From: Rhytidiadelphus loreus
Taxonomy: Eukaryota; Streptophyta; Bryopsida; Hypnales; Hylocomiaceae
DNA: 64,000 nucleotides
NCBI GenBank assembly: GCA_947034895.1
Contig: OX344761.1
Span: 78,243,839-78,307,838, forward strand
Direction: 5' to 3'
Every line of letters begins with the position of its first letter. Within the stretch, counting starts at the first letter, position 1. The position numbers and the translations under genes were made by a program. Under the pieces are notes generated by a model. That model did not search any database. It saw only the letters and a list, made by a program, of their open reading frames with translations, and was not told the DNA's origin. Shown piece after piece: positions 2,236-64,000 of this stretch.

Positions 2236-5156
<2,921 letters not shown>

Positions 5157-13899: not shown

Positions 13900-15782
13900 T
13901 TAATTCAATCAAGAGGGGGTACCCGTGGGCATTTAGAGGACATATGGTCGCTCTGATCCCATGACTTAGAATGATCGAGCGACTTGTACAATAACGCTTC
14001 AATCGTTAGTGATTCAACATTCTTGTTGACAACGCAGCATTGTTAGTCTTGATGAAATTCATCGGAATCGATATTCATGAATAATTTCATGGATCCTGAA
14101 TTCGCAATTGCGTCAATTATGTGCTCATGGCGTTCGTCCGAGTATAATTTTACTCGATCACTCAATTTATCATTGAACAAGGCGGTTGTCACGGATTTAT
14201 TGGTGGGCAAGGACATGAGCACATACATAATTCACCCCCAAGGGATACCCCGACTGCGACGTCATTGTTTTCAGTTCATTTTAGCACCTCATTAGACCTG
14301 TAAATAATTCCAAGTGAAAGAGTAATTTGCACAAATTCCAAACCTATCCAGATTCTCACCGTCATTTGTTTAATTACCACTTAGAGTCACTGAAGCCAGT
14401 GCGGTCAAATTCATTCAATTGACGCTATTCAGAGGGCCCAAATTGCGACATTCCATTGCGTGAAGCTTTAAATACGAGGACTCGGTGGTATAGGTCGAAG
14501 TGTACGGGACGGGATGGGCGTTCGAAGTCGTCTCAATTTCGTGAATTTCTGCCAATTTAACGAATTTAGATTTGAGGTTGCAAGCCAAAGGTCTTCCATG
14601 GCTATGATGATCCATTCCAAATTGCTGTTTTTCTTCAGTACAGACCCTGAATGCAGGGCGAAATTCAAATGATCTCACAAGTTGGAGCGAGTAGGGACTT
14701 GAGGATGAAAACATCTGATCGTGCTTTCTGTAAAACGTACTAATATATATCAACTACTTCTTGAGTCGATTCTTACGACCTTCATTAATTGATTCCCCAA
14801 AACGTGAATCCTTTGTTCCGAGTGCTTTTGTTAATGTTTGGCGCACGGGCATCTGGGACAGCCATAGTCACAACGCACACCTGGCAGGTTGTGATATATC
14901 AGGGACAGAAACATGAGACCAAACAGCACATGAGCAATTTTTCGCTCCTTACAAGCCCTTCACCGAAACCAGGGTGGACAAGTTACTAGAGCGAGTTCCT
15001 CGTACTAACGGCATCTTTTGCACCCACCGGAAGGCGGAAATTTGCGGAGTAGTTGCGATGGATCATTTAGGAAACACAGTGACCGGCGCTGACCTAATTG
15101 AACTTCCGTTTGGGTATAGATTTGCGTTTGAGTTTAAGAATTTATAGGTTGGTTTTGGATGAGCTGACGTGTTTGCGGCTTGATTGCAGGTTTGTTCATG
15201 AGTTCCTCAAAATAAACCCGAAATAGTGGTTGACACTGAACGTGGAGGGACTATATATATCGATGTGAGTGACGAGACTCTGTTTTGGGGTACTGTGGTG
15301 GATGCCTTGCTTTCTACTGAGAATGAATTGATATTCATTTTGGTAAGCACAAATACTCTGGGTGATTTGGTAGCTATGATGTTTTTGTTCTATTAGGCTT
15401 GCTGCTGTATTAATTGTTGATTACAACAGTTATGAAGTGGTTATGCTCCACAACCACTCCCCCTAACCCTAGCCCCTAAAACCCTTTCTCCAGTATTGGA
15501 TCGCCAGATCATAACACTCTTTTTAAGACTAAGAAACTTAAATCTGGAGCCAAGAATACTACTGGCCACTTTCGTGGCTCAGCGTGTACAGTTTTCCACA
15601 AGCAAATCCGTAGTTGAGTTACTGAGGACGACATAAATCTGCAGAGTGCAGACTACCTGAAGCCCGCCATGAATCATACCATGACAGACTCTAGGATTAC
15701 GAATTAGCAACACAAAAAACGGTACGTACTCTTGAGCGAGCGGCAATTCGAAATCCTGCACAGGTCAGCTCAAGATACCTGA
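13900..15782. other. 3' flank and intergenic
   Basis: No recognised gene. GC is moderate near the pseudogene and falls away. It holds one short open stretch (14917-15147). A CCCTAA-like run at 15460-15485 is too short to be telomeric. Confidence 0.5.
14917..15147 (+). other. Open 76-codon stretch, possible exon remnant
   Basis: This frame is stop-free from after TGA at 14914 to TAG at 15145-15147 and has protein-like composition, for example FFAPYKPFTETRVDKL and then LIELPFGYRFAFEFKNL. It has no ATG near its start and no clear flanking splice sites were fixed. I do not recognise it. It could be an exon of an unseen gene or chance. Confidence 0.25.
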
Positions 15783-18224: not shown

Positions 18225-18292
18225 ATGTTACTTTTACAGTTCAGACCGGGCGATCTGAAAATGGCACCTGGAATACCACCATTTTAACGAAA
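18225..18292 (+). mobile_element. Right end of a palindrome-family element (fragment)
   Basis: In order it holds GATGTTACTTTTACAG, the degenerate dyad TTCAGACCGGGCGATCTGAA, GGAATACCACC and the inverse terminal repeat CCATTTTAACGAAATTGCC. This is the same order as at 22500-22865 and the inverse of the element end at 49241. No matching left end was found. Confidence 0.75.
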
Positions 18293-18302
18293 TTGCCCAT
18301 TA

Positions 18303-20390: not shown

Positions 20391-21801
20391 TCCAGGAGAT
20401 TTTCATTCCCTCCCTCACACAAAGCGTGGGAAACCTCTAGAGCTATTCCAGTAGGTGTCGAATTTCTCGAAGCGTGTTAGGGAGGCTGGCCGGGGACATG
20501 CATGGAAACCAACTTACGGATTGTTTCTGAAATGAATTTAAAGAAATTCTGTTTCTTTGTTTCACATTGTGTTCCAAGTATCCAGAGTTGCGAACCCACT
20601 TAAGTACTGACATTCGGTACTAGGTAAGCGTTTTCCCTGGGGGTGTATTTTTACTGGGCTTCTTCCTTTGCCTTTTCGTATTCCATTATAAGACTTGATT
20701 CTTCTCGAGTGCCCCTGAGCACATGTCCTTATCAACAGAATTCCTACGTACTAAAAATCTAAAACATTTGAGTTACCGAGAGCTAGTACGTATGTACTTT
20801 CAAGATAGCCCGCGTGGAGCTAAAGTCCACCAACTTGCCGAACCACTGACCGAACCTATGAAGTCCTATACTGTAAGTCTCTGTATGCACCGTCCAACGT
20901 AACACTCATCGATCCCGACTTAATTAATTAGTTCGTTGTTTGCTAATGAAAGCAGGACTGCTGATCGTACCTAGCTACGCACTAAAAATCTACAATAAGT
21001 GAGAGTATGTATTCTCAAGATGTATGTACTGTCAATAAGTGAGAGTATGTACTCTCAAGATAGTCCGCGTGGAGTTAATGTCCACCAAACGCGCCAGGAC
21101 TGCTGACCGTACCTATGAAGTCCTGTGCTGTCTGACTGCTGTATAGTGTATACTGTCTGTGTCTGTCTGCACACTCCGTCCAGCACTCATCGATCACTTA
21201 TTTAGTTAATTCGCTGTAGCTTGTGTGACCGGTGATCAGTTCCAGAGCAGCTAACTTAGCCTCAGTACTCAGCTCCTCTGTGCCCGGGGAGTTTCATCTT
21301 CGACGCTAGCAAATGCATTTAAACGTACGTAAGAAGGAGAACCCGTTCAATGGAGCTATAGGATCGTTGAGTGCAGTATCCAGTTCTTGGCTTGATTATT
21401 GAGAACGTATTTCACTAACTAAATCATCAGTACTAGCTAGATCGATCGATATCAACCTCCCGCCCGTGCACCCGGGCCTGTTATGGCCAGATTCGCATGT
21501 TCTCGACCACTGGGGAAGATGGAGAGTCGTTACAAGGCGGGCGTGATCATGGCGTCGACTCGAAGTGGCGAAGTCCGCTTGCGGTCTGATGGGGTGCAGT
21601 TGTTAGGCTGTCGAGGTTTCCTCATGGTCGCTCTTCTCGTCGTCACGGCGACCACGTTCGTGTTCCAAGACGTTCAGTGCAGCATCACTACCGACGCCCT
21701 CGCACCTGCACCCAATCCGTCGCCTCAGCAAACGCAACTCAATGTGACATTCAATCAATACGAAGGTAGTCCTCTTGATGATTGTGTTGCACGTGCATGT
21801 C

Positions 21802-21972
21802 AACGTCAAATTCGTTAAAGTGGCGCGATTCGATCAAAATTGTGACATGAATGTGCATAATAGTTTAAAATCTACGATTAACATGGATTTATGTTTCAGA
21901 ACGCTTATACTGAAAGGTGCTCTCAGAAGTGCCAAAGTATTGGAATACCGCCAATTTAACGAACTTGTCGTT
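21802..21972. mobile_element. Palindrome-family MITE in intron 1 (fragment gene)
   Basis: Left end AACGTCAAATTCGTTAAAG, right end CCGCCAATTTAACGAAC followed by TTGTCGTT. These are versions of the terminal repeat at 49241. The orthologous copy is at 35532-35681, so this one predates the duplication. Confidence 0.75.
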
Positions 21973-21978
21973 TCTTGC

Positions 21979-22273
21979 CAGGGTTGTCACCGTCACGTCC
22001 TGTTCGTCCGTCAGGATGTCCGGACGGACGTCAGGATTCAACCCTGGCGTCCGTCAGGATTAAAAAAAAAAAAAAAAAAAAAAATTTTTTTTTTTTTTTT
22101 TTGACGACCTGGCTGTTCACTGGTTTGCTCCAGGGTGCTAAACAGGCTGTCAAAAAAAAAAAAAAAATTTTTTTTTTTTTTTTTGGGCTGACGGCAATAC
22201 CGACGCGTCAGGACGGACGCGTCATGACATCCGGACGTGAAAAGCCCACGTCACGTCCGGATAGACAACCCTG
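21979..22273. mobile_element. hAT-like MITE
   Basis: Ends CAGGGTTGTC and GACAACCCTG are perfect inverses, flanked by the 8-bp direct repeat TTTCTTGC (21971-21978 and 22274-22281). The duplicate locus at 35678-35690 has TTTCTTGC once, an empty site. An 8-bp duplication and CAGGG ends mark the hAT superfamily. Inside are two A-run/T-run blocks. Confidence 0.93.
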
Positions 22274-22420
22274 TTTCTTGCTGCTGAGTCCCCGGCCCCT
22301 GAGCCCAAATTCAACTGAACGGCACAAAATGAAGTATGTCTGAGTGTCTAAATAGTACCAAATTTTCTCGGTTCCACGAACAAGCTAGATCACTGGCAAT
22401 TGGGTCACATTATATGTATG

Positions 22421-22865
22421 GGCAACTTTGTTAAAATAGCGTCATTCCCCTACTTAGGCAGTTTTTAGGTTTAGACAAGGCGGTCTGAAATGTACAATTA
22501 TCCTAGATGTCACTTTTACAGTTTGGACCACGCAGTCTGAAATCTATATCATTCCTAGATGACACTTTTACGGTTCACACCGAGCGGTCTGAAAGGGCCA
22601 GGGTGAATTGACCCCCTCATTGCCCCTCCAGGGCAAACCCTGGAATTTTTTATTTGCAAGGTTTAATTTTTTTTTGAAATTCTGAATTCATATTTGCAAT
22701 CAGAGGCCCCAAATTACTCTAGGGAGATGCAAGTATTACCAAAAAATTGGCACAACATAGGGGGCTTTTTTTTCAAACCAACGTTGACCGGAGCAATGAG
22801 GGGGTCAATTCTCCCTGCGCGTCTGAAAGTGGCACACGTAATACTGTCATTTTAACGAAATTACC
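22421..22865. mobile_element. Palindrome-family MITE, with a nested MITE
   Basis: Left end GGCAACTTTGTTAAAATAGC, right end GTCATTTTAACGAAATTACC, flanked by TGTATG on both sides (22415-22420 and 22866-22871). The duplicate locus at 35836-35855 lacks it. Three degenerate dyads lie inside at about 22470, 22514 and 22572 (for example ACACCGAGCGGTCT), each separated by CCTAGATGYCACTTTTAC. The ends and dyads tie it to the large element at 49241. Confidence 0.88.
22596..22820. mobile_element. Mutator-like MITE nested in the previous element
   Basis: Left end GGCCAGGGTGAATTGACCCC; the inverted right end reads GCGCAGGGAGAATTGACCCC, and both continue CCTCATTGC. It is flanked by the perfect 9-bp repeat GTCTGAAAG (22587-22595 and 22821-22829), which is half of a dyad of the host element. 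A 9-bp duplication is typical of Mutator-like elements. Confidence 0.9.
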
Positions 22866-23405
22866 TGTATGTATATATACAGTATATAAAAGTCCATTGG
22901 GTGATGCACTCATTAATTACATGCGTGCTTGCTTTATCTAGCTGCCCCGTGTAGAAATGCTCCACCACTTGATTAACCTTAATGCTTCCTTCACTAGCTG
23001 GTCGAAGTTTGATCTTAGGGTTCTTTCATGGGAAGCTGAAGCTGAAGTGTGTTTTGTTGGATACTCGATCACTGTGGCAGCAGATGCTTTGAACGCCGTT
23101 TTCCACAGTCGAAGCAAGGGTCCAAAGAAACATAAGTGTTTACTTCGAAGCACCACGATTAGGATTCCAAGGACAACCTCAATTCTTACATCTCTAACTT
23201 GTTTCACCTCTCAGTCACTCCCGTCGTGTTGCTGTTATTGCTTCTTCTACGAACCTTTGTTTCGAAAAATCAATGCATCTCAGATCCTTGTCCGTCACTA
23301 AGTTAATATAGTAGTAAAGCTTGCTCCCCTCTGTAGCTCCTCCTCTATACCTAATCGGATAATTTGATCATCACGCAAGATCGATAGAACGACACGCCAA
23401 CAAAG

Positions 23406-23825
23406 ATGGCTATGGCGCAAAATGGAAAAATTGCGCAATCTTGTTCCATTTTCGTGTTGCGTCTTGCTCTCGTGATGTTGTTGTTTGTAAGCCGCGCCAC
23501 TTGCACCGTGACAATCCGCAACTGGACGACTCGCACCACAGTGATGGTGACAGCCAGTCCAAGAGGAGCGGCCGAGGACCTTCTGCCCAGTCAGTGGATC
23601 GAATACACGATCATCAGCAACAAAAGGAGCGCCATGTTCACCTTGGCCACAAACAAACCTGACAACAAAGTGGTCACCGTCTTGCTATATGATGGCCAGG
23701 AAGTAGCGTTGATAGACAACATGAGCGACTCCATTGACGGAATCCTTGTGGACGACAAGGGAAACAAGATTCAAACCTTGTTCATCAATTTGTTAAGGTT
23801 CACAAAAAAGCTCACATACATGTAG
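23406..23825 (+). CDS. Small secreted protein of unknown function
   Basis: A single-exon frame of 139 codons. A signal peptide covers about residues 12-33 (hydrophobic LRLALVMLLFVSRATC). The mature part begins TVTIRNWTTRTTVMVTA, with QWIEYTIISNKRSAMFTLAT in the middle and the end DNMSDSIDGILVDDKGNK before IQTLFINLL. The mature part has no cysteine that could form a disulphide pair. A beta-rich fold is possible, but I recognise no family. ATG at 23406 was chosen because a second ATG two codons later is the one conserved in the broken copy at 16682; either could start translation. Two further copies of the 3' coding end follow at 23961 and 24201. Expression is unproven. Confidence 0.62.
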   Translation: MAMAQNGKIAQSCSIFVLRLALVMLLFVSRATCTVTIRNWTTRTTVMVTASPRGAAEDLLPSQWIEYTIISNKRSAMFTLATNKPDNKVVTVLLYDGQEVALIDNMSDSIDGILVDDKGNKIQTLFINLLRFTKKLTYM

Positions 23826-35206: not shown

Positions 35207-47153
<11,947 letters not shown>

Positions 47154-47660
47154 TTGTTGTCTATTGAGTACGTAAAATTGGTGGCATTGAAATGAATTCA
47201 ATAGTTAGATAAGATGGCTTACAATGTGCTAGATTGATTACAACCAACATACAATCATGGTAATTGAATGAGCATTTTGATGCTTTTTGAATCTACAATT
47301 TCCCAACTATATTGTTGTATCCTCTAGGTTCAATGACCTTCTACTAAGTCACACTTGGTAATAAAATACATGGTGATTTATTTTTGAATCATGTGAAATT
47401 TGCAAATTAATGATATTGGCAATGAACTAATGACGATGATGATAAAAGTGATAGTTTATTGTGGGTTTTTAAAACAAAGTTTATCCCATATATTCATATT
47501 TAAGATGTCATAAGAAAATCATTTGTGATATTGATTTGAATTGAAGACAAATACTTTAAGTAGCCTTTACATATTTTCAGATTCTTTTGTGAATTCCTAG
47601 CATTTCTAGATATTAAGACTTTTTCAAGGGCTAGAGTAATAGCATTTTCAATTTCTAAAT

Positions 47661-49240
47661 TATTTTGAAAATATTTTATTTTTTGGTTTCTGAAAATCAA
47701 TAGTTAAGTAAAAAATTTAGAATTAAAATGGATATAATTCCACAAAAATCAAAAGATAATTTCATATTTGTCAATCTATTTAGTGGTGTCGATTATCGAT
47801 GGCCTAAGGTAACTACAAATTAGGTTTTGAAATCATGAAGTATTCAAAGGCTCAAAATGTTCTCTAATGTATTGTTGTATATTTTTTTCTTCAATGTATT
47901 AGTTGCATTTGTCTGTATACGAAGAATGAGCATATTAACCAATGGACATTGTCGTGAGGTTTTGTTGCCTATTTAGAAAATCACAAGGCTTTAAGCTATA
48001 GTAAATGTTTGTGATAGGGGAAGAAATGCAAATAGACTAAAGAAACCTTAATCCAACACCTATCCAATCCACGAAATCCAAATAGAACCATAGTTCCCAC
48101 AACAAATAAGAAACAACACTATTGCTTTAGCAAATTTCCTTCACTTATAACCCTGGAAGTAACTCTCAAACTTGTAAGATGCAATAGCATTCAAATCCCT
48201 TTCAAGTTTATCTACCGCATCTTTGCAAGCTTTAAAGTTTAACCCTCCTAAGCATACAAAAAGTAAAAGCAATCCTCAAGACCACAATTTACTCAAATAA
48301 GTGATGATATATTAAATCATTCTCAATTTGTCCCAACTTAGATTATAAGGTTTTGTTCAAACCAAGTTCATTGAAATCAAAAAAGAAAGCCGAATACCAA
48401 AAACAAGAGAGTTCCAAAGAAGGAAGCCAAGCCTTTTAAGTACTAGTCAAGAGGACTCAAGGCTACCAACAATATGGGACAAATGCCCTATCAAACCCTC
48501 CAACTGAGCCTAACAACCCTTCGAACAATAAAGGACAATTGCCCTTTCAAACCGTCCAATCAAGCCTAAGAACCTTTCGGCTTCTCCTACCAACTTTTTA
48601 ACTTGGAACCTACTTAAATGTAATAAGATGCCTAACTTTATAACTAGTAGATGGCCTACATCATGACAATGCTTATAGAGTCTTATGTGATTCCAACTTC
48701 AAAATTCATAACTAATTTGAAGAAGGTCCAAAGGATATGAAATGACTTGGATTCAATTCCGATTTTATTTTATCTTTTAAGGAAAATTTACCAAAAAGTA
48801 TTTTGGAAAGTCAAGTTCCTTAAAATTGCAAATTAGATAGTAAATGGTCACCTTATGAACCTCCTACCTTAATTGTAATCCCATTCTAGAATTGACCCTT
48901 CCATATTCTTCCCAAAAATATATGACTTCTCTTCATGAGAGCATAGGTTGATTAAAGGTATGAGAGCCTAGGTTGCATTAGAAGGGATTTAGCCCCCATA
49001 GAGGGTTGTGGATTCCCCTACGTTTCTAGATTGTGGAAATGCATAGCAGTAGTAGACTACAGTGGTTTGATGTGGCTGAAATTCGACCATGCCAAACAAG
49101 AATTTTTTTTTAAAGAAAAACCAAAGGAATTTTTTTTTCCATTTTAAGTATTAAAATTTTATTATTTTATTTGTAAATTCAAATTTTTGACAACACACTA
49201 CTCTTGCGCTGCATTAGGAACAACAAGGGGATTGATGGGG
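47661..49240. other. Intergenic between copy B and the large element
   Basis: No gene recognised. Two 65-70-bp tandem units sit at 48443-48590 (both with GGACAAWTGCCCTWTCAAAC). AT-rich until 49240, where the GC content rises sharply. Confidence 0.5.
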
Positions 49241-49936
49241 AATTTCGTTAAAATGGCGGTATTCCGAATGCCATTTGTACATGAAGGTCCGGAAAGGTGG
49301 TTTAGGATGTGTGCTACGTAGCCAGTTGGATGTGATGGTAGGGTCCGACAAAGTGATCCCACGGCACGAGAAGATGCATTTCTGCGTACTAGGAGAGGAA
49401 GGACAGACAATGGGCACAAATCTAGTTCGCAAAAGGCGGGCAAAACGAACGGGGAGATGGTGGAATATTCCTGGAATCTTTGGAACCGCAGGCTTTCTGT
49501 CGTCGCCTCAAATGGAAGGGGGGGGCATCAGGGGTAGGGGTCAGGAACCCACGATGGACAATTCGGTGTGATCATTCATGAACGCGGGATCAACAAATAT
49601 TGCACAAAGAGAACTCAAAATAGGACTCCTTCAAATGGACGAGCCCCCCCCAAAACGAAACGCATCATTTAATATTATTTCTCCTCGAAGAAAATGGTCG
49701 GTACAAAAATCGGCCAGCATGCACGCCACGCTTCCTAGAGTCTACCAAGGACCTCAACAATGCAATCTCAAGCACCAGTCCAAAACTACATGGATTGCCA
49801 TTGACCGCTCACCGTTGGCTACATTATATGTCAAATGCCGTCACTCGGCCAAAACGCATGGTAGCTGAGCGCGCATCGAAGATAAAGCTTCCAACATCCC
49901 TCTCCAGCAAAGCCCATCATAATTATTCTTCAAAAG

Positions 49937-52900
49937 TTAGTGTACCTCTTCCTCTGCAATGCGACGCAAATTGTCCACCGCAAATTGCACTTGTTGACGC
50001 GGCACAATGAAGCTCTTCCCGTCATTCTTCTTCGGTTTCCACGAGGCCATAATACTGTCCGTGGATACGTAGTCCGCCTGGCTCGCCCTACGGTCAATCT
50101 TCCATCTGAAACTGGACTTCGTGTCCCACCCGGCGTACAACCGCGCGGTGTCCTTCGAGGTGCCGCACGAGATGTACCATTGCACCAAAACTTCACGGAA
50201 GTGGACTCCCGCGGGATCGAATTGAGGATTCTCCACGGCCCTACCAAGCCACACCGGATCCTCACAATCCAAGCCCGGCCTCACAAACACGTAGAAGCCT
50301 TTGCGCAGATCAGTGGCCACGTTGTACGCTGGCGGGGGCCTCCCCTCCAGAGTGCCGATGTAAGGGTCTTCCGCCTCGTGCTCCTCCCGCGTCCGGCCGT
50401 CTTGCATGAAGTCCGTCGTGAAATCCCCAGGTTGTCGAGTCTGAGGCCAAAACCCTTGCTGCAACTCATCAGAGTCGCGAGGGTCTTCTTCTGCTCCGTC
50501 ACGTAGCGCATTTCTCACGCCGCTCCAATACGCGACCAAATAGGACATGCGCGCCTTGTACTCCGCCGTCCCGTCTCTGCATACGTCCGTCCAGTGTTGG
50601 ATGTATCCGTTTAGTCCGCGCACGATCTCGGCTTCGCTCGTCATTTTCTTGGGAGACACGCGGAGGGGATCGCCTTGCGGAAGCAGAGGCTTGTGCTCAG
50701 CATCTTCCTTCCATAACCTCAAGCCCGCTTCCGGCAACCAAGGAATGTCTGTACACGCCAGTTTGTATTGCATGATCGGCCAACCGTTGTCGTCCATGAA
50801 GAACTTGTATTGCCGGCCGTGCGAGTGGCCCACCAGTTGTTGCTTCTGCATCCCGATGTAAGGTTTCACGTAAGCCTTGAAATCCGGAACTTCTTCGACC
50901 AGGTGGGGAATGAAGGGGCCTTGTTCCATTTCCATGTACGACTGCATCAACAACGGTAAAGTGGGATGGTCCTTTTCGCGGAGTTGCATGCTCCAACGCC
51001 CGAACGATGCATCCATGTCGTCGTGCGTGTGTCCCACGATCATGAAGGATACGATCACCTCTTTCACGATCCGCCTTGCCACCAAGAGCGACCAAAAACA
51101 AAAGACGTACCGGTTCTTGTTTTCCCTCCACGAGTTGTCCATTTGAATGTGGAGCACCGGGGGCAATGGTTGGGCTTCGATGGGTTGTGGAGGAACCTCT
51201 CCCAAAGAAGCCACACAAATCTCGCTACCCGACAGCAATGCTCGATACAACTCTGTGCTGCCGCCTCTAGCAAACAAAGATCGAGAAGACTTGATGGGAG
51301 GGGCTTCCAAATCTCGCAACAGCTTGGCGATGGATCCCACGGTGAAGTTGCTGTCGCTCCGAAACACGTCCAAATTGTAATGTGCGTATTTGCCATCCCC
51401 GTGCCCGTGTGCAAAGATTCCCGTCACTTTCATGGGCAACTTCATGAGTCCATCGAGTGCCTTCGTTTTTCTCGCCAATGCGGGACACGCTGTTTTCGAA
51501 TGGTCCATCTTGTCGTGCATGATGGATAACAATTGCATGGGTTGCAATTTAGACAACCATCTACTCCGGTAGTAGGCATGCCGACAGGCCTCCTGCAGAA
51601 ACAAGTGCTTCTCAAAACGCTTTTGGATTTGTTCGTAGTCCTTGCACCCAGGTGCAAAAGAAGCACGTAATTGCTTCAAGGTGTCGCAAATGCTACATCT
51701 TGCAAAGGAATCTCCTCTTCCCTTGATGACGTACTCGGAAAAATGTTTTGTCCGGATCTTACTGAAACAAGATTGCGAAAGAGCGGACAACCCGAGTCCG
51801 GAGTTGGCCTGCAAACAGTGCCAAGCACATGGTTGTTGGATGAATCATCACAATGGACAAGGACTTTGGATCATTGTCATGAGTAATGCGTAGTGGAGCC
51901 AGTGCCTAATTCTCTGAATCTCAAGTGATGCTGTAGGTACGTGGGAAGCTTACCTCGTTCACAGTGACCAACAATTGCCCCCATTCGGTTCTGGCAGGGA
52001 GCACTTTGACGCCTACTTTCTCGCCCGTGCGCAAGGTGTGAGACAAATGGGGCATGTGGTCGGCCCTTGCCTCCAATAATGAGCGCAAAGTCTCGATGGC
52101 TTGTACAGTTGCATCCCTAGCCTTTGTATGGTGGTGGTTTCCGTGCGGAGCGCCTCTGATGCCGACCTTGGCCTTGGCTTTGTACCTCTCGAACGTGCGG
52201 CGAGTAATGTTGTGCATAACCCTCCAGGCATGCGGACAGATGTCTATGCCTTCTACGGTGACCATTTTCCTCCTTCCGCTTCCCCATGCTTCGTGCAGCG
52301 CCCTGTGTACGTCCAAATTCCGGGTGCTCCTGATTTGAAATGACTACATGTGCATTTCTGTCCGCAGCGCGCGAATGGTGGAAGGAGAGAATTTGCGAGT
52401 GCATTCCTTGTCGCAACAAAGTTGCGCGTAGACCTCGGCGATGGACTCATGTGATAGCATCTTGGTCCTTTTGTTCAATGTTGCGGCAGCTCGAGTTCTC
52501 CTGTCATAGCGATATTGTCGTCCGCCCATTCTCTTCCGGTTTCCTTGCAGTTCTTCCTCGATAGCTCGTCGTTTGCGAGCGTGATCATAAACACTGACAT
52601 ACCCGTGTTCACCGTGATAAAAGACGCGTCGCATAGGCCATCGCAAGCACATGTCGCTGACGCTGTGGTCCCCATTGAGGACCTCGAGCACAACAATGCT
52701 GACGTCATCCACGCCCAACCTGCTGTTACCATCAATGCATGCGTTCGGATTGGCATTGATGATGATGACTTCCGCGAAATCGGTGCCGTCGGCGTGCCTC
52801 GCGAGCAGTGCTTTGCCAGACCATGCGTCCCGACCAATGCCCTCACAATCCGGAATGGGAGTGGCGTCCACATCTGCCTGGGCAGGTGCCTCCAAGTCGA

Positions 52901-53046
52901 CGTCTTCCTCTTCACATTCTTGGAACCCCTGCGCATGCCGCGGTCAAGAATCAACTCGGGACGCGGAGCAGAATGCCAAGAGGTGACGCAGGGTCGATGA
53001 GTAAGTGGGGTACCTCGTCGCCGTCGGATTCCCTGCCAGAAGCCAT
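49937..53046 (-). CDS. DDE-like transposase (DUF7869-type), one in-frame stop
   Basis: Exons on the minus strand: 53046-53014, 52928-51954 and 51808-49937. The introns of 85 and 145 bp are both phase 0 with GT..AG. The product would be about 958 residues. The N-terminus is acidic. CCDKEC lies near residue 182, followed by a basic helix region (VEGIDICPHAWRVM, near 236). A zinc-knuckle-like FARCSICD starts the last exon. Then come the acidic signature blocks MDHSKTACP (near 437), QMDN (near 559), ENKN and GHTHDDMD (near 595). These blocks in this order are, from memory, those of the uncharacterised DUF7869 family; their spaced Asp residues suggest an RNase H-like DDE nuclease. That reading is inference. 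A TAG at 52344-52346 (residue 206) interrupts exon 2 in frame, with coding sequence clear on both sides; it could be a recent nonsense mutation. An 18-base GT..AG around it is too short for an intron. The stop at 49937 lies about 700 bp inside the left end of the element. Confidence 0.8.
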
Positions 53047-53163
53047 ACTGGCCCCTCGGAAGTTGTTTCCGGAAACGAAGTCTCCCACTCCACGGAGGGC
53101 CCGCACGGGAGCTCCGTAAGTTGTCGCCGGAAGTGGTAAATGCTTCCCCGACGAATTCGATCC

Positions 53164-53946
53164 GACCGCGCGGTCTGGAAGACAGGATATGCAAATCATT
53201 CAGACATCCCGTGTGCATGCATGACATGATACTCATCCGACAGACTGCAACCTTTGTCTTGAAAATGTCATTCATAATTGCCAAGTGCTCTCCAGGATCA
53301 GACCGCGCGGTCTGTTCGTGAAGAGCCACGGGAAGACCACTAGAGCAGGAGATGAACCTACGGCAACCGGTACTAGTCAGAATTCGACGGCGTCGAACTC
53401 ACTGCCAGCCTCCATACTTGCATAGGACGATATCTTCGGCAGTGAACGTGTCGTTCGTTTAGACCGCGCGGTCTAATTCGAGAGGTCTGTGGATTCATAG
53501 AAATAAGACCATGCATGTTTCGGAATCCGATGAGCGGAACCTCCCGGAGCAGTAACTTGCTCGGAACATTTTAGACCGCGCGGTCTGAACTGTTGTCCAA
53601 ACTACTCGGATCCAGTCCTTCCAAGTAGAGGTAACATGGAGCATTTCAGAGCGCGCGGTCTGGAATGAGAATCCAGAATTTCGACAAATGCTGTACGAGC
53701 AGGAAACAGTTGTCATCGCTTGGACATAAATGAAAATCCGATGTTGGAACACGAGGTGAGGTATCAAACATTTCAAACCGCGCGGTCTGAAATGTGAAAT
53801 CCGATGGATCTCCAAAATGGACTCTCCGTTGTCGGATCTCTGAATACGGTCGAAAAACATTTCAGACCGCGCGGTCTGGAATGAGTGGGGGGTGCAGTTT
53901 CAGGATATCAAATCCTCCGTCTCAAAACGTTTCAGACCGCGCGGTC
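53164..53946. repeat. Palindrome cluster 1: eight AGACCGCGCGGTCT dyads
   Basis: Cores at 53164, 53300, 53461, 53573, 53648 (one mismatch), 53775 (one mismatch), 53864 and 53934 (last base pair lost). Spacing is 70-160 bp. The cluster starts 118 bases upstream of the transposase ATG, so it covers its promoter. Several extend into longer self-complementary arms, for example TTTCAAACCGCGCGGTCTGA. They are probably protein-binding sites for the transposase or a regulator; cruciform formation is also possible. Confidence 0.93.
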
Positions 53947-53999
53947 AAAAACAAAAAGGCCTCACTCGTAAGGTGACTTCCAACCTCAATGTGTTCACA

Positions 54000-54700
54000 C
54001 CGTGCAACGTGAATAAGTCGGTGTACAGACGTACCTAATAAAACGGAGCATCTAGGTAACTAATGTGCAGTCAGGGAGGTAACACAAATGACGATGAACT
54101 GTTGTCCAAAATGCCAACCAATCGAAAGGCAATTCCACAGGGGAAGAGTGGATAATATAACAATGACAGCCAAACACAATTGATATTCTAGAAATCCATA
54201 ATGGTATTCCTAGTTGCAATGCCGGTATTCCAATGTAATGGCACCGCATTCCATTAAAATGGCACTGAATTCGCGAGACAAGAACACTACATTCCGGAAA
54301 AATGACAAGCTTGCCGCCATTCTCGCAAAATGGACCCAGTGAGCAGAATTGAACAACTGATCACAATTCTTGAAATCGGGATACACCCGAAACTGAATGA
54401 GGTAAGCCACAAATTAAATGCATGCACGCGGAGAATGACTTACATTTGCAATGGACAATATAACATTGAATGGAATGAAATCGAGCATTCATTTGGCAAT
54501 GATAGCAGATCAAACATCCATGAAATTGCAAGTACTTGATTTGAATTCGGAAAACACCTTTGCATCCATCTCATCCGAAATCAGTAGGATTCGATGAGGC
54601 CGAGCCTTCCATTCCGACCACGCAAGTCACACTACGCAAAGGAACGAACCCTACATTCTCCGACTAGGAAGCGAAATCAAACACGGAGACGTCTTCGTAC
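54000..54700. other. Spacer inside the large element
   Basis: Holds repeated fragments of the sub-terminal sequence: GGTATTCC occurs twice (54200-54235) and TTAAAATGGCAC once (54255-54266), in the left-end orientation. No gene recognised. Confidence 0.45.
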
Positions 54701-54815
54701 CTGAAAGGGAGGCGGTCCGACGTGATCTTCCGACTCAAGGCGCTGACGAGCTGCAACGCAGCGACTCACGAGCGGCAGCGCAGCGATCCAAAATTCGCCC
54801 CAAACGCGTGTCTAC

Positions 54816-54897
54816 GGAGCTCACGCGAGAACGACGACGGGAGGAAGACATGCAACGACGGAGCCCGCGGGAGAACGGCGACGGGAGGGAGACATGC
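54816..54897. repeat. GC-rich 44-bp tandem repeat, two units
   Basis: GGAGCTCACGCGAGAACGAC at 54816 and GGAGCCCGCGGGAGAACGGC at 54860 both run on to GGAGACATGC or its variant. It lies in a GC island (54700-54960) between the two genes and could be leader or promoter DNA for either one. Confidence 0.7.
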
Positions 54898-55530
54898 GGG
54901 AGACGAAGCCGGCGACCTAGAGTGCTAGACTTCCTTCATTTAATGCGCTCGGCGGCCAGCACATAAAAGCCCGTGGGGCCCACTTGGAAGCCCGTTCGTT
55001 GTGTATCTTTTTGCACCTAAATATGCTGCAGGTAGGTGATGACGTAGAATTTGGAATTTCCGAATGATAAGAAAAGATGTCACTTGGTGATAAGCAAATC
55101 AAATAACACAAGAAGAACAAAGTTCACATTATGAAAAAATAAACATGTGCGCAAACATTGACCTATACATCATATATATTGTGACCACACTTTATACTCT
55201 AATTTCAATTTCAGTTTGGGAGTATTAGTTCTGAATTGTCGAATGGAGGGAAGAGGGGGATAAAATAGAATAATCCTATTCCGATTTGCTTCATTTCCGA
55301 GGCATTCAAAATTGGATCGGGCACGAAAAATTAAAGAAGGATCACAATTAAAGGGAGAATTGAACCCGACCATGCATAGACTTGTTCTAAATTGGATTTG
55401 AACTATGTGAACCCCAACGGGGACCTGGTTCGAACAATGTCCACTGGGATATTGGAACAACTGCATTCAGAACTCAGTCACGAAAGTCATTTCCCAAAAA
55501 CATGCTCACAAAACCAGAAAGTGAACATTC

Positions 55531-55715
55531 ACAGTTCAGACCACGCGGTCTGAACTGTGAAAACGGCAGAACTTGAAAAATTCCTGCACGACAGGGACTG
55601 GACGTCTTCACAGGAATCCAGTCATAGAAATTTGTCATCCTCCAAACGAGGCCTTCTGCCTGACCTCGGAGTGTCCTTTCATATCGACAGGTTTGCATTT
55701 CAGACCCCGCGGTCT
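55531..55715. repeat. Palindrome cluster 2: two dyads
   Basis: Core 1 at 55538-55551 (AGACCACGCGGTCT) sits in a 30-bp dyad whose arms read TCACAGTT and AACTGTGA. Core 2 at 55702-55715 (AGACCCCGCGGTCT) has arms ACATTTC and AAATGT. The arms differ between the two copies. Confidence 0.9.
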
Positions 55716-56192
55716 CAAATGTGAAAGTCACGGACCTCGCGGAAATCGAACGAGGTGAAGGTGTACTGAAATTCAATCTAATAGGCACTCTACATGTCAT
55801 TGAATAATCACGAATCAGAATTACGAACTCAAATAGAAAGGGAATGATACCTTTGGAAGCTCCAAGGGGAACAATAATTTGATTTCATGTAAATTACTGA
55901 AAAAACACGAAACCAAAGGCAATGCAATGCATTCAATTTCATTTCAAAGAAAAGGTCGTTGAAAGTCAGGAATTAGTCAAAGTGGGATGGAACAAGAATT
56001 ACTAATAGTACAACACATTCATTTGTCCATCAAGCTCTGTCAATGGCTCGGGCTTCAAAATACGAGGGAAGCGACAAATACAAGAGAATCATGGGACGTA
56101 CAGTAGGGTCATCTACAGAAAACTCGTGTGATACTCTCCCATTTAATATAGTTTAAAGGAAACTCGTGTAAGTGGCGGCGCATTGCAAACGG
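55716..56192. other. Upstream of the second gene
   Basis: No recognised feature; the likely promoter of the gene starting at 56193. Confidence 0.4.
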
Positions 56193-58815
56193 ATGCAAGC
56201 CTTGTACCTTCGACGATACTTCACCTGGGATTCTTGGGCGAACTTCAAGGCGGCGTCCAAAGGAATTGGGCGCAACAAGGTAGCGGCGTTCATTTCAACT
56301 TGCACTGCATTTCGCAACATCGACACAAGGGAGGTGGACGGCCGGGTGGGAAGAAGGCGGCACAAACTCAAGCACGGGGGACGGTGGAAAGAAGGCGAAC
56401 ATCCAAACGCGGAAGAGGAGGGCAGTTTCGCGACACTCTTCACAAGGTAAAACATATTTCAATTGTTTCCATTCTTGCTTTCTTGGGATTGTGCCAGTCA
56501 AAACCGATCAACTCAAGAAATGGACATTGTCAATGGATTGATTTCAGTGTAGATGACACGCAAATGCATGCAAGTCTCAAGAGTTCTATTTCCATCCACT
56601 GCATGATGTCATAGAGAACATGTTTTCGGTTTAGGAATTATAGGAGTCACAGACTGCGCAAAGAGAGAATGCTTTCTCCTAGTACGCGCTTTCATGGAGC
56701 CTATTGTAGGAAATAAATAATACACTTCATGTTTCACTCGCCGCTTAGTAACTACGTGACTGTATGGTCAATTTCGTTAAACTTTGAACTTTGAACTTTG
56801 TAGATGTCACTGGATCACGGCTCCGCTCCCTACTGACTTGCAATGCTTGTCATTTCCGAAGTGGGATTCAAAAGGTACCTCCCTTGGCTCCAAATTGCAC
56901 AACTAAAGCATACAAGTTTCTTGGATTTGGGGGTAGGTGCACATTCGACGAGGCTCAATGGCAGACTCACGTTTCAACAAGTGCTCCCACAACCTCAAAA
57001 CTATACTTGACCATCAAAACTTCGGGTACGTTGAACTGACTTCAAGTTGTTGCTTTCCGAGCATTGTGTTCATTGAAAGCCATCACGGCCATTATGATAA
57101 TCCCATTCGACTGGCGAGGTTTAGCAACCAGGTTTCGCAAATCTATAAGTTTCTGCAGATCAGACCGCGCGGTCCGAAATCCACAACTGTCCTAGATTTC
57201 GGAAAACTGGATCACAAGTGGATGGAAGAAAGTTACAATTCACACGGACGGGACTGTCACACTTCAGACCGCGCGGTCTGAAGTTAGTCGAAGTCCACGA
57301 CTTAGGAAATCCAAGACGCTGTAGGGCCTGTCAGTCACTTTTACGATTCTCCCATAGTCCTAGATTTAGGAAAACGAGATGACATGCTTCCTAGAAGTCC
57401 GAAAACTAAAATTGACACGAACGGGACTCACGGACTTCAGACCGCGCGGTCTGGAGTCCGAGACTGCGGGATTCCATGACGATAGTGACCTTCCCTTCGT
57501 CGCTTCACGCCAACTGTCGAAGATTTGAGAAAACTGTCCAACATCAGAAAATTTCAATGACGCAACCTCCACAGTTCAGACCGCGCGGTCTGAACTCGGT
57601 ACAACTCACTCAGGAAGCCGGACACTTCGAAATGCGGTCTTCGGAAATGGTCCACAAAAACCCGCCATTTTCACGAAATTAAAGTAGAATCTGATGCTCG
57701 TGTGCTTGCCCATGTATTCTGGAAATGACCATTACTGCTGACATCAATCTTTGCGAATTCCAATTGGAATGATTTCCCAAACAGAGCTCAAGATTTCTGG
57801 CAAGGATACAAACTGTACTGCTTTGCCCATTATTCTCACTGTGATACATCCAAGGGGCTGTTCCAAGACAGCAAGATGGGTGAGTGCTATATGGACCATG
57901 TTGGGCTTCGTGCATTTGTATGCTGCATTCAATTCAAATCATTTATTTTTTAAATGGCGCGCTCGTGAATACCACTTCGGACAACATTGATGGCTTCCTT
58001 TCTGTAGGTCAAGTGATGTGTGCGTTGCAAAACACAATGGAAGTGGCATGGGGTGCACTATTTGATGCAGCGATTCGGGATGTGTGGGTCATGATGGAGG
58101 AGTATGTCCACATCCGCCATGGCAAGGACTGCAAGAACCTCAGGTGACCACTCCATGTCAATCATGTCAGACCCCATTTGGAGCAACAAGTAGTACAGTG
58201 GGTTTGTACCATGCAATCATGTTCTTCACTCCAGAATTTCTTTCGTCCTAATCATGCTCAACTGGGGGCTGCGGCGTGACATACAGAGCTCTCATGGAAG
58301 AATTCGACGATGCCAACAAGCTATCAACCTCCGAGAATGGTTCCTTATTACTACAACTCATTCAGGTTAGTAGTAAACGCTCGTCCCTACCTACGAATAG
58401 CATCTACTAGGAGATAGACAAAGATTAATATGTCCAATGCTACCTTGTCATCGAAGGGACTCCACTCTCAAATCCATGTCAAACTTCGGAAGGGACACAA
58501 CAATCTTCACCCACTTGGGAAGAAGTCATCCATGATATGCAATGATGTCGGTTAAGTTGGTAAACGAATGTTCTAAATTCATCGAGGTTCAATTGCCAAG
58601 TACCTGATACCAATATTGACTCATTGAAATACGTGTTTCCACCACTACTCTCTCAGGATGATGAGCACGGAACCGAACATCTCCACAGAGAGTCGCAAGC
58701 CGTTCATGTCGACCTAGATATTTTTGAGCAAGTGCGGGCTCGGCTGAATCAAGCACAAGTGAATCTGGCAAACCTCTCGCCTCAACCTCGCGGGGCTCGA
58801 CGTCGCAACCGCTGA
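56193..58815 (+). CDS. Unrecognised 5-exon gene next to or within the large element
   Basis: Exons: 56193-56446, 56804-56874, 58008-58143, 58287-58365 and 58657-58815. Every junction is GT..AG and the phases agree (2, 1, 2, 0), which is unlikely by chance. The product would be about 233 residues: a basic start (LRRYFTWDSWANFKAASKGI, then RREVDGRV-like basic residues and RRRHKLKHGG), CHWITAPLPTDLQ, the helical AWGALFDAAIRDVWVMMEEY, LMEEFDDANKL and a C-terminus ending PQPRGARRRNR. No known domain is recognised. The basic tail and helical middle would suit a nucleic-acid or partner-binding accessory protein, but that is only inference. Intron 2 (1.1 kb) contains palindrome cluster 3 and the inferred right end of the element, so either the element ends further right, or the gene straddles an insertion. 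The first exon is the weakest part of the model. Confidence 0.55.
57162..57591. repeat. Palindrome cluster 3: four dyads
   Basis: Cores at 57162, 57266, 57439 and 57578. Each has arms of its own: CACTTC with GAAGT at 57266, GGACTTC with GGAGTCC at 57439, and CAGTTC with GAACT at 57578. All lie within 520 bp of the inferred right end. Confidence 0.93.
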
Positions 58816-61299
58816 TCGCACTTTTTTGCGGGCTCACTGTATCTATGAGGAATCAGCTCTTGCTGAGTAGCATTGCATGGGGAACAGGTTTTATAGAAAA
58901 AAGACATTGCCCTTGTTATATTGCTTCATATTCTGTTCGTAGTCTCTTGTTTTCCTAGAACGAAAGATGTATGCTGTGAATTCCTACTCATGGCAATCAT
59001 CTATACTGCTTGGTTTTTCACTTCTGGCTTCCAATCCAGATCCTTCCAATGTCAATTATTTTGGGACTTTATGAATATAAGATTTGTTATGGTGGTCTAT
59101 ATTTGCATCCGGGGTTTCAACTACCTAGGGGGGGTGGCTCTCATATTTCAATACTTAGAATGGGTTGCCTCCGAATGATCCAAAAAAACAAGCCTCTAAC
59201 TACACACAGTCATTCATTCAGCAACGTTGAATCCTGAGTTTCTTTAAGCTTTAGAATTTTCAAATAATTCTACCTTTTCTTCAGCAATAGTATTGGACTT
59301 ACAGATGGTGTGTTTCAACAAGCCTCTCAATGAATTGGTCTAATTATATACGAATACAAAGAAATGGCAACTTCAACAAATGTGAGCATATTAGCACCGA
59401 TCTTCTCAAGCCATAGTTGGGCGGGCCGCAAATGCTCTACATCTATATTTTCCACTTACTAGGATATCTCATAGAATAAATGTCTACTTTTTCATTGGAA
59501 ATTCAACACATTTTATGTTGTATATTTCATATAATTATGCTTCTTTGCTATATTTCGTTTCCATGGAATTCATCATAGAGTGAAGCTCTCAATCATTTTG
59601 TAGTATTGGAACAGTCATGATTACATCGAATTTGTAAATAATCCAAGTTAGATAATGCTGGAGTTCACTTGCAACTCCGGGAAAACTTCAACTTCATAAG
59701 TCTGAAATATAACACTCAGTTTCTCAAGTTGTGAGTGAGCTTTAGAGAAGGTACAGTAAGCTCTGAACTTCACGCACAAAGGTGAGCAAGAAACTTGCAT
59801 TTAAAAAGCATCGGATGAGACATCTTGCTATGAGATACATGATCAAGTTCATATGTGTGAGAATCATTTAAAAAACCATGATTTTTTAAATGACAATTGA
59901 GTTTGATCATTGAGTGATTGACCTTAGGTGTACCTATTTTTTTTTTTTTTTGGGTAGTATATATGCTATTCGAAATGTCATGGTTATGAATCGATTGTTT
60001 CATTTTCACATAATTAGAAGCAAAATGAACAAGATTTTTGATATAGGGTGATTGCAAGAAACACTTCACGTTTTTTTGGTCCCCTGAACCTTAGATAGCT
60101 GGTTTTTGCTCATAACTTTTGCATCGTGTGTCCATCTTCTATGAAACTTGAAATGAAGGTACATGTGGTAGTTTCAGATGTTGAGTACTTTTTAAGGCTT
60201 TTTTTTATAGTTATTCTACTATTTTTAAATTGCCCCCGATTGGATGTCTACCGTGGCCATTTTGAAGGGTTTTAGCACTATTTTCCACCCAAAAATACGA
60301 ATTTGAAGCTCAAAATTGGTATACTAGAACTTCTACTAGAGTTACACAACCTTACCAAAGATTTTCTAAAAATAGATAATTTTCCATCTGCCACATGTGC
60401 TCAAAGTGCACTACCTTTGCGCAAGTGTAGAGAACACAATTTTATTTTTCCAATAGTGAAAATTGGTGAAAAGGAGTATCTATAAGTTAGAAAAAATAGA
60501 TTTTTTTTTGAATTTTTTGAATTTTTTACTATTTCTTAAGAATTAAATTTCAAACTGTCTATTTTCTTGCATTTTTCAACCCTCTTTGACCGTGCATAAC
60601 TCTTAGAGAAAAAAAAATTTAGGTCTGAATTTTTGCACATACCATTTTTTTAATGCTGTACACATTATCCATATTTTGTGTACCATTTTCAAAGTACCTA
60701 GTTCGAACCACAAAAGTGACATCTAGGACAGGTATAGATTTCAACAATCTTGAATTTATATAGATTTCAGAAATCTAGGATCTCTATAGATTTCAAGCGG
60801 TGTATTTTGAACTACAGAAGTGCCATCTATGACTCATGTAGATTTCAGACATTTAAAAATGATTAAGTTCTAAGAAATCTAGGTGCGAATCTAAGACATT
60901 TGAACATTTTAGACTACCCGGTCGAAATTGAAAAAATTGCCAAAGTCAGCGGTGCTAGTTTGTGAGCCTACGAGCATGATGAGATTTCAAGCGGTGAGCA
61001 AGATTGTGCGAGCGTTAAGTTCAAAAATTTAAAGAAGTACTAAAAAATTAAGAATATTGCTAAAAATAAAAATCCATCTGAAATTTTTGATCAAAATCTT
61101 CTATTTTTAGTGGATTATCGTATCTATTACTATAGACCTATTGCCGTGAACCTATTACCGTGGTTTTGTAGAATTCAAATGAAAATCAAAATTTCCAATG
61201 TTTCTTAAAATATTAGAAGTAGAAATTATAACAATCATGAACTCAATTGATGTGAAAGATGAATGGAGATGGAAATAAGTTCATATAGAATAATGATTG
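58816..61299. other. AT-rich non-coding DNA
   Basis: No supported gene. At 60710-60735 the phrase AAAGTGACATCTAGGA, the inverse of the sub-terminal phrase of the palindrome family, is present with a decayed dyad. A further decayed trace (AGACTACCCGGTCGAA) is at about 60910. Confidence 0.5.
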
Positions 61300-61830
61300 A
61301 TTACGATCTTATAGCAACAAGGGTCCTCTTAGGATTGAATGGTTGATGGGAGGGTACTAATAATTTTCTCTTAATGCATTGTTGTTAGACTTGTTTCGAT
61401 TTTAGAAAAAAAACATGGTTGATAATAATTATTTTTATATCTAATGATCTTTATCACATTGAATTTTATTTTAGTTGAACGTTGTCTTATAGCATCATGG
61501 ATCTTCTCCAAGTCAATGAAAGGGTATCAATACTTCCGTCTTGATTTGTAAGTCTGTAGACTTGTTTAGATTTTCGAAACAAAAATTTGTTCATAACAAA
61601 TAATTCATTATATGTAGAAATAGCTTAGGTGAAGCAAATTTCATTTTTGTTGGTCACTATTTTGTAGTAGCATGGATCTTCTTAGGGCTGATGGAAGGTA
61701 TCTGTATGTTTGTCTTAATGAGCGTATAATTGAGCTTGTTCAAAATTTGAAAGAAATTTTTTGGTTTATTGTCGTATGTGCTATTTAAAATATCATGGTT
61801 ATAAATCAATTGTTTAGCGGTCACATAAAA
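61300..61830. repeat. Degenerate tandem array, about 176-bp unit
   Basis: Units begin near 61309, 61487 and 61663 with TTATAGCAWCA and GGATCTTCT-like phrases and share GACTTGTTTAGATTTT-like segments. A related stretch around GGTTATRAATCRATTGTTT occurs at 59980 and 61795. Confidence 0.7.
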
Positions 61831-62846
61831 GCACAATATTCAAAATTCCTAGGTGTCAATAATATTTGAGCTACTAACAATGTCATGAACCCCTATAAGG
61901 TCTTAGTTAGTATAGATCCATTTTTCAAATCGTCAAGGTGTGATATAAATTGCAATTTTTTCTTTTCTATGATGGAATCTCATTGTGTGTAGAATTTGTT
62001 AATGTAAGAGTCTAAGTCTGTGACGATTTGAAATTATTGTTCCATCTTCAAAAGATAGACTAAGTGAAGAAATTAATATCAAATATCAAATATGATTCAA
62101 ATGTCTACTTCAGCCTACATTTCATTCTTGAAATAGGATTATATATCAAATAGGGTATTGGAAAATCTCTTGATTTAAAAAAAATAGGAGATATGAATGC
62201 AATGGTGAATAAAATCGAAGAAGAGAAGAAATTAATTTGTGCATCATGGTACATTAATAGAATTGTGTAAGTTTCAATTTTCATAAATGAAAGAATGGTG
62301 ACAAGTTTAGAGAGTAAGCCATGTTGCATTCTTTGATATCCCAAATAGACTCACATAATTGTTGTGAAGTGTAGGAGGAACAACAACTTGGCCAGGTACA
62401 ATTTCGGACACAGTTTCAGATGTTGGAAATTGAGAAGAGTTGGTACATTGATCTAGATTAAAATACCTCCACTTCTAGAATAGCAACAACGAAACACAAT
62501 AATTCAAACAAACAAATCAAGATAACAAAATCCCAAATTTAATAAACCATCCTAGTAAGTTCGTTATATTTCTAAGTACCCAGTATTGTGTTTTCAAATT
62601 ATATATCAAGTATTTTTGGATTTAGTTCACAAGAAATATGATAGTTGCAAAATTCTAAATTCTTTTTTTTTTGTTTTAGAATGGTGTGTTATGAGTGGAA
62701 AAATATGTAACTATTTATGAACAGGATTGAGTACCAATTCTTCACGGTCGCATTTTGTGTTCTTTTTATCGCAGATGCTGAAGTGATTATAACGTGGTTG
62801 CTTGACCATTAAATGGGATTATACAATACACGGAGGAAATGAAGCT
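61831..62846. other. Intergenic, nothing recognised
   Basis: AT-rich, no supported feature. Confidence 0.5.
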
Positions 62847-62850
62847 TTAA

Positions 62851-63144
62851 CCCTGCTAGCGCCAAGCATTAGTTGGGGGATGGACAAGTCAGTGGTGTAA
62901 TATATGCTTTCATTGACCAAATCCCCCAACCTGTTGCTTTATTGGGGTAAGTACCCAAACACTCAAAGTTTGGGATTTTCTTTTTACATAAAAGCTAGTT
63001 ATGTAAATCCAATTGTACCGAAAGATGACCAAATGAATTTGATTCTCCGAAGGATCCCTGGAAGTGCCATATCATTTGAATATTGCGAATAATTGAATAA
63101 GTACTTTAGAAATCAAAGTGACCACGTTTTGGTCACTAAGGAAG
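62851..63144. mobile_element. Probable TTAA-flanked element, 294 bp
   Basis: TTAA at 62847-62850 then CCCTGCTAGCGCCAAGC; the right end TTGGTCACTAAGGAAG is followed by TTAA (63145-63148). The ends are imperfect inverses. A second left-type end, CCCTTTAGTGACCGTGG, follows at once at 63149, without a right end inside the window. Confidence 0.5.
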
Positions 63145-63148
63145 TTAA

Positions 63149-64000
63149 CCCTTTAGTGACCGTGGTTGATTTGAGGGGCGGGCCTAGTTTTTCTAGAAAC
63201 TGAATTTTGTGTCCATTGCAAAGATGCAGTCTTATATCAAACCATACAAGGTGTTTCCATAAGGGAGATTCTTCAACCTAACAAAATATGAAACTCATCC
63301 AACGGTACAAATTGCTATAAATGAGGTAGGAGGTTCACAAATCAACCAATTCAAGGCTAAAATTGAAATTTGGGAAGTGAAACATTTTTAAATATTTTGT
63401 AGTAAATTTCCCTCAACAGACAAGTAGAATAGACATCTAACCGAAGTCACTTCCTATTTTTTCAAGCTTTGTAAAATTAGTTACAAATTCTTGAAGTTCA
63501 CAAAAAATGGTCATCAAAACAAAACCCCTTCTAAAACGGGTACATTGAAATGTACCTCTAAATCATGTTTGCTTCTAGAGCCTTGCTGGAGTTTGAGTTG
63601 CTTTCCTTAATTCTCAAAAATCAATGCCTTAAATGACCCTTTACAATTTATGCTACATAAATACCGATGCATAAGTTTATTGTGGACATTTATGAGGTTA
63701 CAAAGCAACCCTGATGCCTTTTGTATTTTTTGTATTTTGGTTGAAGATTTCCCGTGTGAGTTGGTAAATACCTCGATCTTCTGAAGTACATTTTAAATGA
63801 TTGATTAAGAATAAGTAGAACTCCTAATCCTCTCCAATTAAGCAAATTCTTCCCCCTTCCAGAACTAAGCATAATATACATGTTGTAATCGTTGATTTAA
63901 TTTGTAGGTAGTGCACGAGTGCATAGGAGTTGTGAGATTTGAATAAGAGTTAATGTACATATGGCCTATTTTGAGTATGTTGCCAGTCCCTTTCATGTTT
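63149..64000. other. AT-rich right edge
   Basis: It may be the body of a TTAA-family element that starts at 63149 and runs off the window. No gene seen. Confidence 0.35.

Follow-up and report, generated by a model that had tools for sequence, protein, structure and literature searches.

A palindromic dyad array in a 33-kb plant transposon may serve to regulate the element's own promoters

What might a short palindrome be for when it recurs at a fixed geometry around the genes of a transposon, with arms that vary from copy to copy and tend to match within each copy? The question is raised by a 64,000-nucleotide stretch of the Rhytidiadelphus loreus genome (contig OX344761.1, positions 78,243,839 to 78,307,838; hereafter the window), in which AGACCGCGCGGTCT, a GC-rich palindromic core of 14 bp, occurs in 14 copies with at most one mismatch at 53163–57591, seven of them exact and seven with one mismatch. 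Two further matches with two mismatches lie at 18243 and 22577. The array is real and non-random: shuffled sequence yielded a mean of 0.03 matches at up to two mismatches, with a maximum of 1. The dyads, given without strand, fall into three groups: eight copies (53163, 53300, 53461, 53573, 53648, 53775, 53864 and 53934; together 53163–53947) upstream of the coding exons of a transposase, two copies at 55538–55715, and four at 57162–57591. The same 14 dyads in clusters of eight, two and four had been described in a first-pass annotation of the sequence and are borne out by this count. The inner 12 bp show little variation, while the outward arms differ between copies and tend toward self-complementarity within a copy. 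Two of the arm pairs quoted in that annotation are correct, namely TCACAGTT/AACTGTGA at the first copy of group 2, whose symmetric arms are the longest in the array (55528–55561), and CATTTCA/TGAAATG at 53775; the third, GGACTTC/GGAGTCC at 57439, has one mismatch.

The array is part of a 33.2-kb DNA transposon, which begins at window position 49235 and ends 18.4 kb past the window (window-equivalent 82434). Its left 14.8 kb occupy 49235–64000 (no strand assigned), and more than half of the element lies outside the window, continuing through L017 and L022 (L-numbers denote fetched genome stretches, P-numbers homologous proteins, and C1 is a contig label). The left terminal inverted repeat (TIR), ATGGGGAATTTCGTTAAAATGGCGGTATTCC at 49235–49265 on the plus strand, is 31 bp long and is matched perfectly by the inverted right end, which occupies 82404–82434 in L022; the left flank ends in ATTG, and ATTG is present on both sides as a target-site duplication. 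The third dyad group, formerly placed in a right sub-terminal zone, is internal, as the element continues for about another 25 kb before its right end, beyond the window. Another copy, on C1 with its left end at 1776443, aligns in blocks of 95.7–98.9% identity and carries an insertion; its right TIR was not found in the fetched DNA. Across the genome searched (407 Mb, 489 contigs), exact 25-bp TIRs number 1228, compared with 0 for the mirrored control. We regard the element as a plant transposon, probably one of bryophytes or mosses.

The transposase is encoded on the minus strand. Its main exon (49937–51814) is recognized by a Pfam match and by a structure model with an RNase-H-like strand order, and a putative N-terminal exon (52347–52943, minus strand) by its similarity, in a tblastn search, to the distant DUF7869 gene of L023 (29% identity, E 2e-16). 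Against the PF25273 (DUF7869) profile the protein scores 152 bits (E 1.7e-44, cut-off 26), the only Pfam match at E ≤ 1, which places it in this family of moss proteins. It has 213 homologues; among the matches listed, the named ones come from Ceratodon purpureus and Physcomitrium patens (41–45% identity). The transposon family looks young, as 70 scored transposase copies (of 1815 candidates) are 92–100% identical and 39 of these have a stop-free main exon, and element activity could still be observable. The structure model ends in a small barrel (around residues 496–602) that resembles BAH domains and, equally well, MazF and chromo-barrel folds. Just past the right end of the 33-kb element, L023 1605–6499 holds a second distant DUF7869 gene at 42–49% identity; this neighbouring gene differs from the element in having no dyad across its 7.2-kb stretch.

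The whole 33-kb copy holds 33 dyads with at most one mismatch and four with two mismatches. Eight of the 33 lie upstream of the transposase exons, in keeping with the earlier view that group 1 covers the transposase promoter. Ten others are found 220–1400 bp upstream of the first methionine (Met) of a second gene, gene 2 (L017 3299–5047), whose open reading frame (ORF) spans 21704–23449 in joined-copy coordinates, and one extra two-mismatch dyad sits 30–42 bp upstream of that Met. The window's copy accordingly has 18 of its 33 dyads upstream of the two element genes. Three more lie inside a putative first intron of gene 2, placed from the end of the ORF and from homologues, and three within the ORF itself, all in the same frame and reading TARS. 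Dyads with at most one mismatch are absent from the outer 3.9 kb on the left and the outer 5.6 kb on the right. In places the dyads form tandem arrays with units of 82 and 91 bp. The spacing from TTCAG to CTGAA is fixed at 10 bp: in the fetched DNA TTCAG-N10-CTGAA gave 48 matches versus 6 for twelve other spacings, and genome-wide it gave 2178 versus 432 for the mirror control.

A dimeric, probably element-encoded regulator is suggested by where the dyads lie, at promoters and in an intron, by the strict spacing of their half-sites and by their tandem multiplication. The reading we tentatively favour is that the dyads are cis-regulatory sites at which such a regulator, working like VANC or TnpA, controls the element's two promoters. 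The protein would bind each dyad as a dimer, with two YAGACC half-sites facing each other, and once bound would regulate both promoters. The likeliest modes of control would be a VANC-like maintenance of the active or unsilenced state, or else autoregulation of the TnpA type. The gene 2 product is a candidate binder that we weakly favour over the transposase. Self-regulation, one of two roles that the first-pass annotation gave the array, is plausible.

The array had also been considered of a kind unknown from other plant elements. It has close functional parallels in the VANC-target arrays of Arabidopsis VANDALs and the TNPA sites of En/Spm. VANC21 motifs are reported to occur ahead of VANA21 and within introns of the VANB21 and VANC21 genes, and to have spread by tandem repeats (PMC5735166). 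The dyads resemble them in being a short motif that recurs both ahead of the genes of its own element and inside their introns, with tandem spread and subfamily differences (PMC5735166, PMC10398659); the upstream and intronic arrays are both present here, granted the putative intron. The site itself differs, being a palindrome of 14–20 bp here and a 9-bp motif arrayed in one orientation in VANDALs. The transposase differs as well, since it matches DUF7869. VANDAL transposases are of the Mutator type (Mutator-like element, MULE), and the Pfam search of the transposase returned no MULE profile at E ≤ 1. In En/Spm, sub-terminal repeats are the reported binding sites of TNPA, a regulator of its own element (PMC2613891); the likeness lies in repeated, partly GC-rich sites, in the two proteins of the element and in a DNA-binding self-regulator, putative here (PMC2613891). 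Unlike the sub-terminal sites of CACTA elements, the good dyads are internal, and the ends, ATGGGGAATTTC (ATGGGG) with a 4-bp duplication, are not those of CACTA elements. The dyad system would work like VANDAL and En/Spm control while belonging to neither, given no MULE profile and no CACTA ends. If this is true, another plant lineage, with a different transposase family, has transposon-borne site arrays for its own control in promoters and introns, and convergent evolution of element-encoded promoter control, whether anti-silencing or autoregulation, would become testable in bryophytes.

The genome-wide distribution of the core bears on who the binder might be. The exact 14-bp core occurs 1384 times, compared with 0 for its mirrored control, and all 50 listed places of the 1384, in 12 fetched stretches, fall in this element, in a diverged subfamily or in a miniature inverted-repeat transposable element (MITE). 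The genome search that the first-pass annotation had proposed thus upholds an association with one element group in each of these 50 places. Sites for a host transcription factor, captured by the element, could explain why the palindrome stands ahead of genes and inside an intron, a placement that would suit a dimeric host factor; confinement of the 50 places to the element group argues against this explanation, which we consider improbable.

We give hardly any credence to the idea that the dyads are meaningless repeats, a palindrome multiplied by tandem duplication. The 82- and 91-bp arrays and the decay of copies at about the flank rate would fit it, whereas the strict half-site spacing and the sharing of sites between diverged sequences do not. 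A dyad beside the first Met of gene 2 is common to L005, L011 and L012, which represent the subfamily, and to L008 and L014, and the gene 2 proteins of the subfamilies that share it are only 62–63% identical; the window copy's own dyad at this site carries two mismatches. Two homologues from other samples also read as if dyads stood in the same places: P0121 (52% identical) ends in SSDRAV right after a conserved YEV, which is how a dyad at that intronic place would translate, and P0130 (47% identity across 21% of the query) includes QTARSE, the translation expected of an in-frame dyad. The shared site and these two homologues count in favour of promoter control by an element-encoded dimer. The subfamily pieces L011 2912–8063 and L012 1211–6362 are 99.8% identical and lie in inverted orientation on C1.

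A more elaborate role for gene 2 is suggested by an invariant-rich stretch with IINGQHTW, which we take to recall the ParB/DGQHR superfamily. Bacterial parS sites, bound by ParB, are palindromic, about 16 bp long and present in several copies. Gene 2 might by analogy encode a palindrome-loading protein, with the dyads of the two promoters and of the intron as its parS-like points of entry, from which it would spread along the 33-kb element and keep it unsilenced; arms outside the core would aid binding only if both match, hence their co-variation. The multi-copy palindromic sites are alike in the two systems and the element differs in being eukaryotic. The motif has no credible Pfam or Protein Data Bank (PDB) sequence match to back it: ten alignment members searched against Pfam at E ≤ 10 gave six weak unrelated families (best 0.027), none of them ParB, and the best hit of a PDB profile search had E 0.81, again with no ParB. 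We judge this version very unlikely.

Several observations weigh against control of both promoters by an element-encoded dimer. Nine of the 33 dyads have no assigned gene: the six of groups 2 and 3 in the window, and another three at L022 1345–2863. Gene 2 has no credible domain match in Pfam, and its structure model is poor (mean predicted local distance difference test score 42.6), so that a DNA-binding role for it is a guess. The dyads of P0121 and P0130 are deduced from protein sequence alone, and among the other eight gene 2 homologues P0124 (RSNRAV) and P0125 (FGPRGP) resemble changed dyads, while the rest show none clear. Nor is the core measurably more conserved than its flanks in element copies, either in CpG transitions (9/114 versus 26/210, p 0.26) or in non-CpG changes (8/164 in the core versus 112/1614 in the flank, p 0.41). 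Last, some dyads stand close to ends, which suits a role in transposition: in the 33-kb element, 44 bp separate the right end from a degenerate TTCAG-N11-CTGAA dyad, whose half-sites are 11 bp apart, and a dyad lies within about 60 bp of an end at window 36450–36628, window 18240–18300, L010 4203–4522 and L050.

These end-proximal dyads would be expected if the transposase bound them to pair and cut the ends, the role that the first-pass annotation had named beside self-regulation in speaking of a transposase recognition array. Among small relatives with related TIRs and one to three dyads are L010 4203–4522; a MITE of about 447 bp at window 22420–22866 (TIRs with 5 and 3 mismatches, three degenerate dyads); and a 179-bp mini-element at window 36450–36628, which has related ends, GCAT on both sides and the dyad TTCAGGCCACACGGCCTGAA at 36500–36519. 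Genome-wide, the GGCC form of the dyad is present in only 3 copies. At window 18240–18300, on the minus strand, an isolated element end has TIR-like sequence adjoining the dyad TTCAGACCGGGCGATCTGAA (18240–18259). On the other side, the dyad is missing from L048, a 233-bp MITE that is recurrent and bears an exact 25-bp TIR at each end (its TIR spacing is seen in 8 pairs among 100 listed places, one of which was read), and L049 (119 bp, one exact end and one with four mismatches, ACAG on both sides) has only a chance-level match under lenient settings. Dyads are also absent from L008 7810–8051 and from the looser-ended L010 3702–3888, L010 5577–5738 and window 14403–14571; they are therefore not a feature of every mobile short element. 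Together with the dyad-free outer parts of the 33-kb element, and with no degenerate dyad near its left end, this makes recognition of the ends at best weakly supported as the main role, and we hold it doubtful. The degenerate right-end dyad, and the fact that L049 has only one exact end, shift some weight to it from promoter control. The 4-bp duplications of these relatives are CAAT at L008 7808–8053, GCAT and ACAG as above; the flanking duplication is unclean at L010 4203–4522 (TTAC/TTAT), at L048 and at the 21.76-Mb copy.

Whichever protein may bind, the symmetry of the arms calls for an explanation. We compared real pairing with that of partner arms shuffled among dyads or clusters (2000 shuffles), using the 14 window dyads and 144 dyads (at most one mismatch in GACCGCGCGGTC) from the window and genome stretches, merged by flank similarity into 29 clusters, one of which groups the MITE dyad L010 4344 with two window-type dyads. 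In the window, positions 8–14 formed 4.93 of 7 pairs versus 3.55 when shuffled (standard deviation (sd) 0.27; 0/2000 shuffles as high); positions 8–10 alone (110/2000) and 15–20 alone (141/2000) were not clear. Over the 29 clusters, positions 8–20 formed 6.33 of 13 pairs versus 4.92 (sd 0.28; 0/2000), and positions 15–20 alone were matched by 13/2000 shuffles. There was no excess at positions 21–33 in the clusters (941/2000), and the window dyads likewise had none beyond position 20. By cluster majority, position 8 was C-G in 21, T-A in 4 and otherwise in 4 (Fisher p 0.003, omitting one G-G cluster), and position 10 was T-A in 17, A-T in 5, A-A in 5 and otherwise in 2 (p 0.013, omitting one C-A cluster); no coupling was found at position 9, and every position from 11 to 18 had a pairing excess. 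Arm self-complementarity is real but partial, with many arms imperfect. The claim of self-complementary arms thus survives the refutation test set for it beforehand, comparison with shuffled partners, for a symmetry weaker than claimed.

Coupling beyond half-site composition, at positions 8 and 10–18, is what would arise if arm-to-arm copying, by quasi-palindrome template switching in replication or by way of a cruciform or hairpin intermediate, made and kept the arms symmetric, with binding secondary. Such a process has been reported elsewhere (PMC8794818, PMC3820800). At L016 8374, two adjacent substitutions jointly lengthen a perfect arm symmetry, a single candidate event. A comparison of positionally equivalent dyads between element copies tells against a continuing process. 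In 20 of the 29 clusters (those of 3–5 members; five larger and four smaller ones omitted), after exclusion of rows that matched their cluster consensus at less than 85% identity and of columns whose polarity was unclear, 4 of 11 polarised changes at unpaired arm columns made a pair, where about 1 in 3 is expected, and 9 changes broke pairs. Arms were inherited mostly with their mismatches, and the asymmetric arms of many dyads persist unchanged across copies. On the time scale of these copies there is no sign that something keeps each dyad symmetric, as had been proposed, and arm-to-arm copying appears unlikely. If the dyads are instead sites of an element-encoded regulator, the coupling may reflect whole symmetric sites that are copied and selected in active elements, while other copies decay without repair. 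A strict palindrome with coupled arms offers a defined probe of 14–20 bp for finding the binder.

Two further features of the window lie outside the 33-kb element. Direct copies at 132–5640 and 42133–47684, about 42 kb apart, match in pieces of 80–91% identity and perhaps represent a duplicated element, and a GC-rich ORF at 13176–13886 has a weak GDSL lipase match (24.3 bits, cut-off 23.6).

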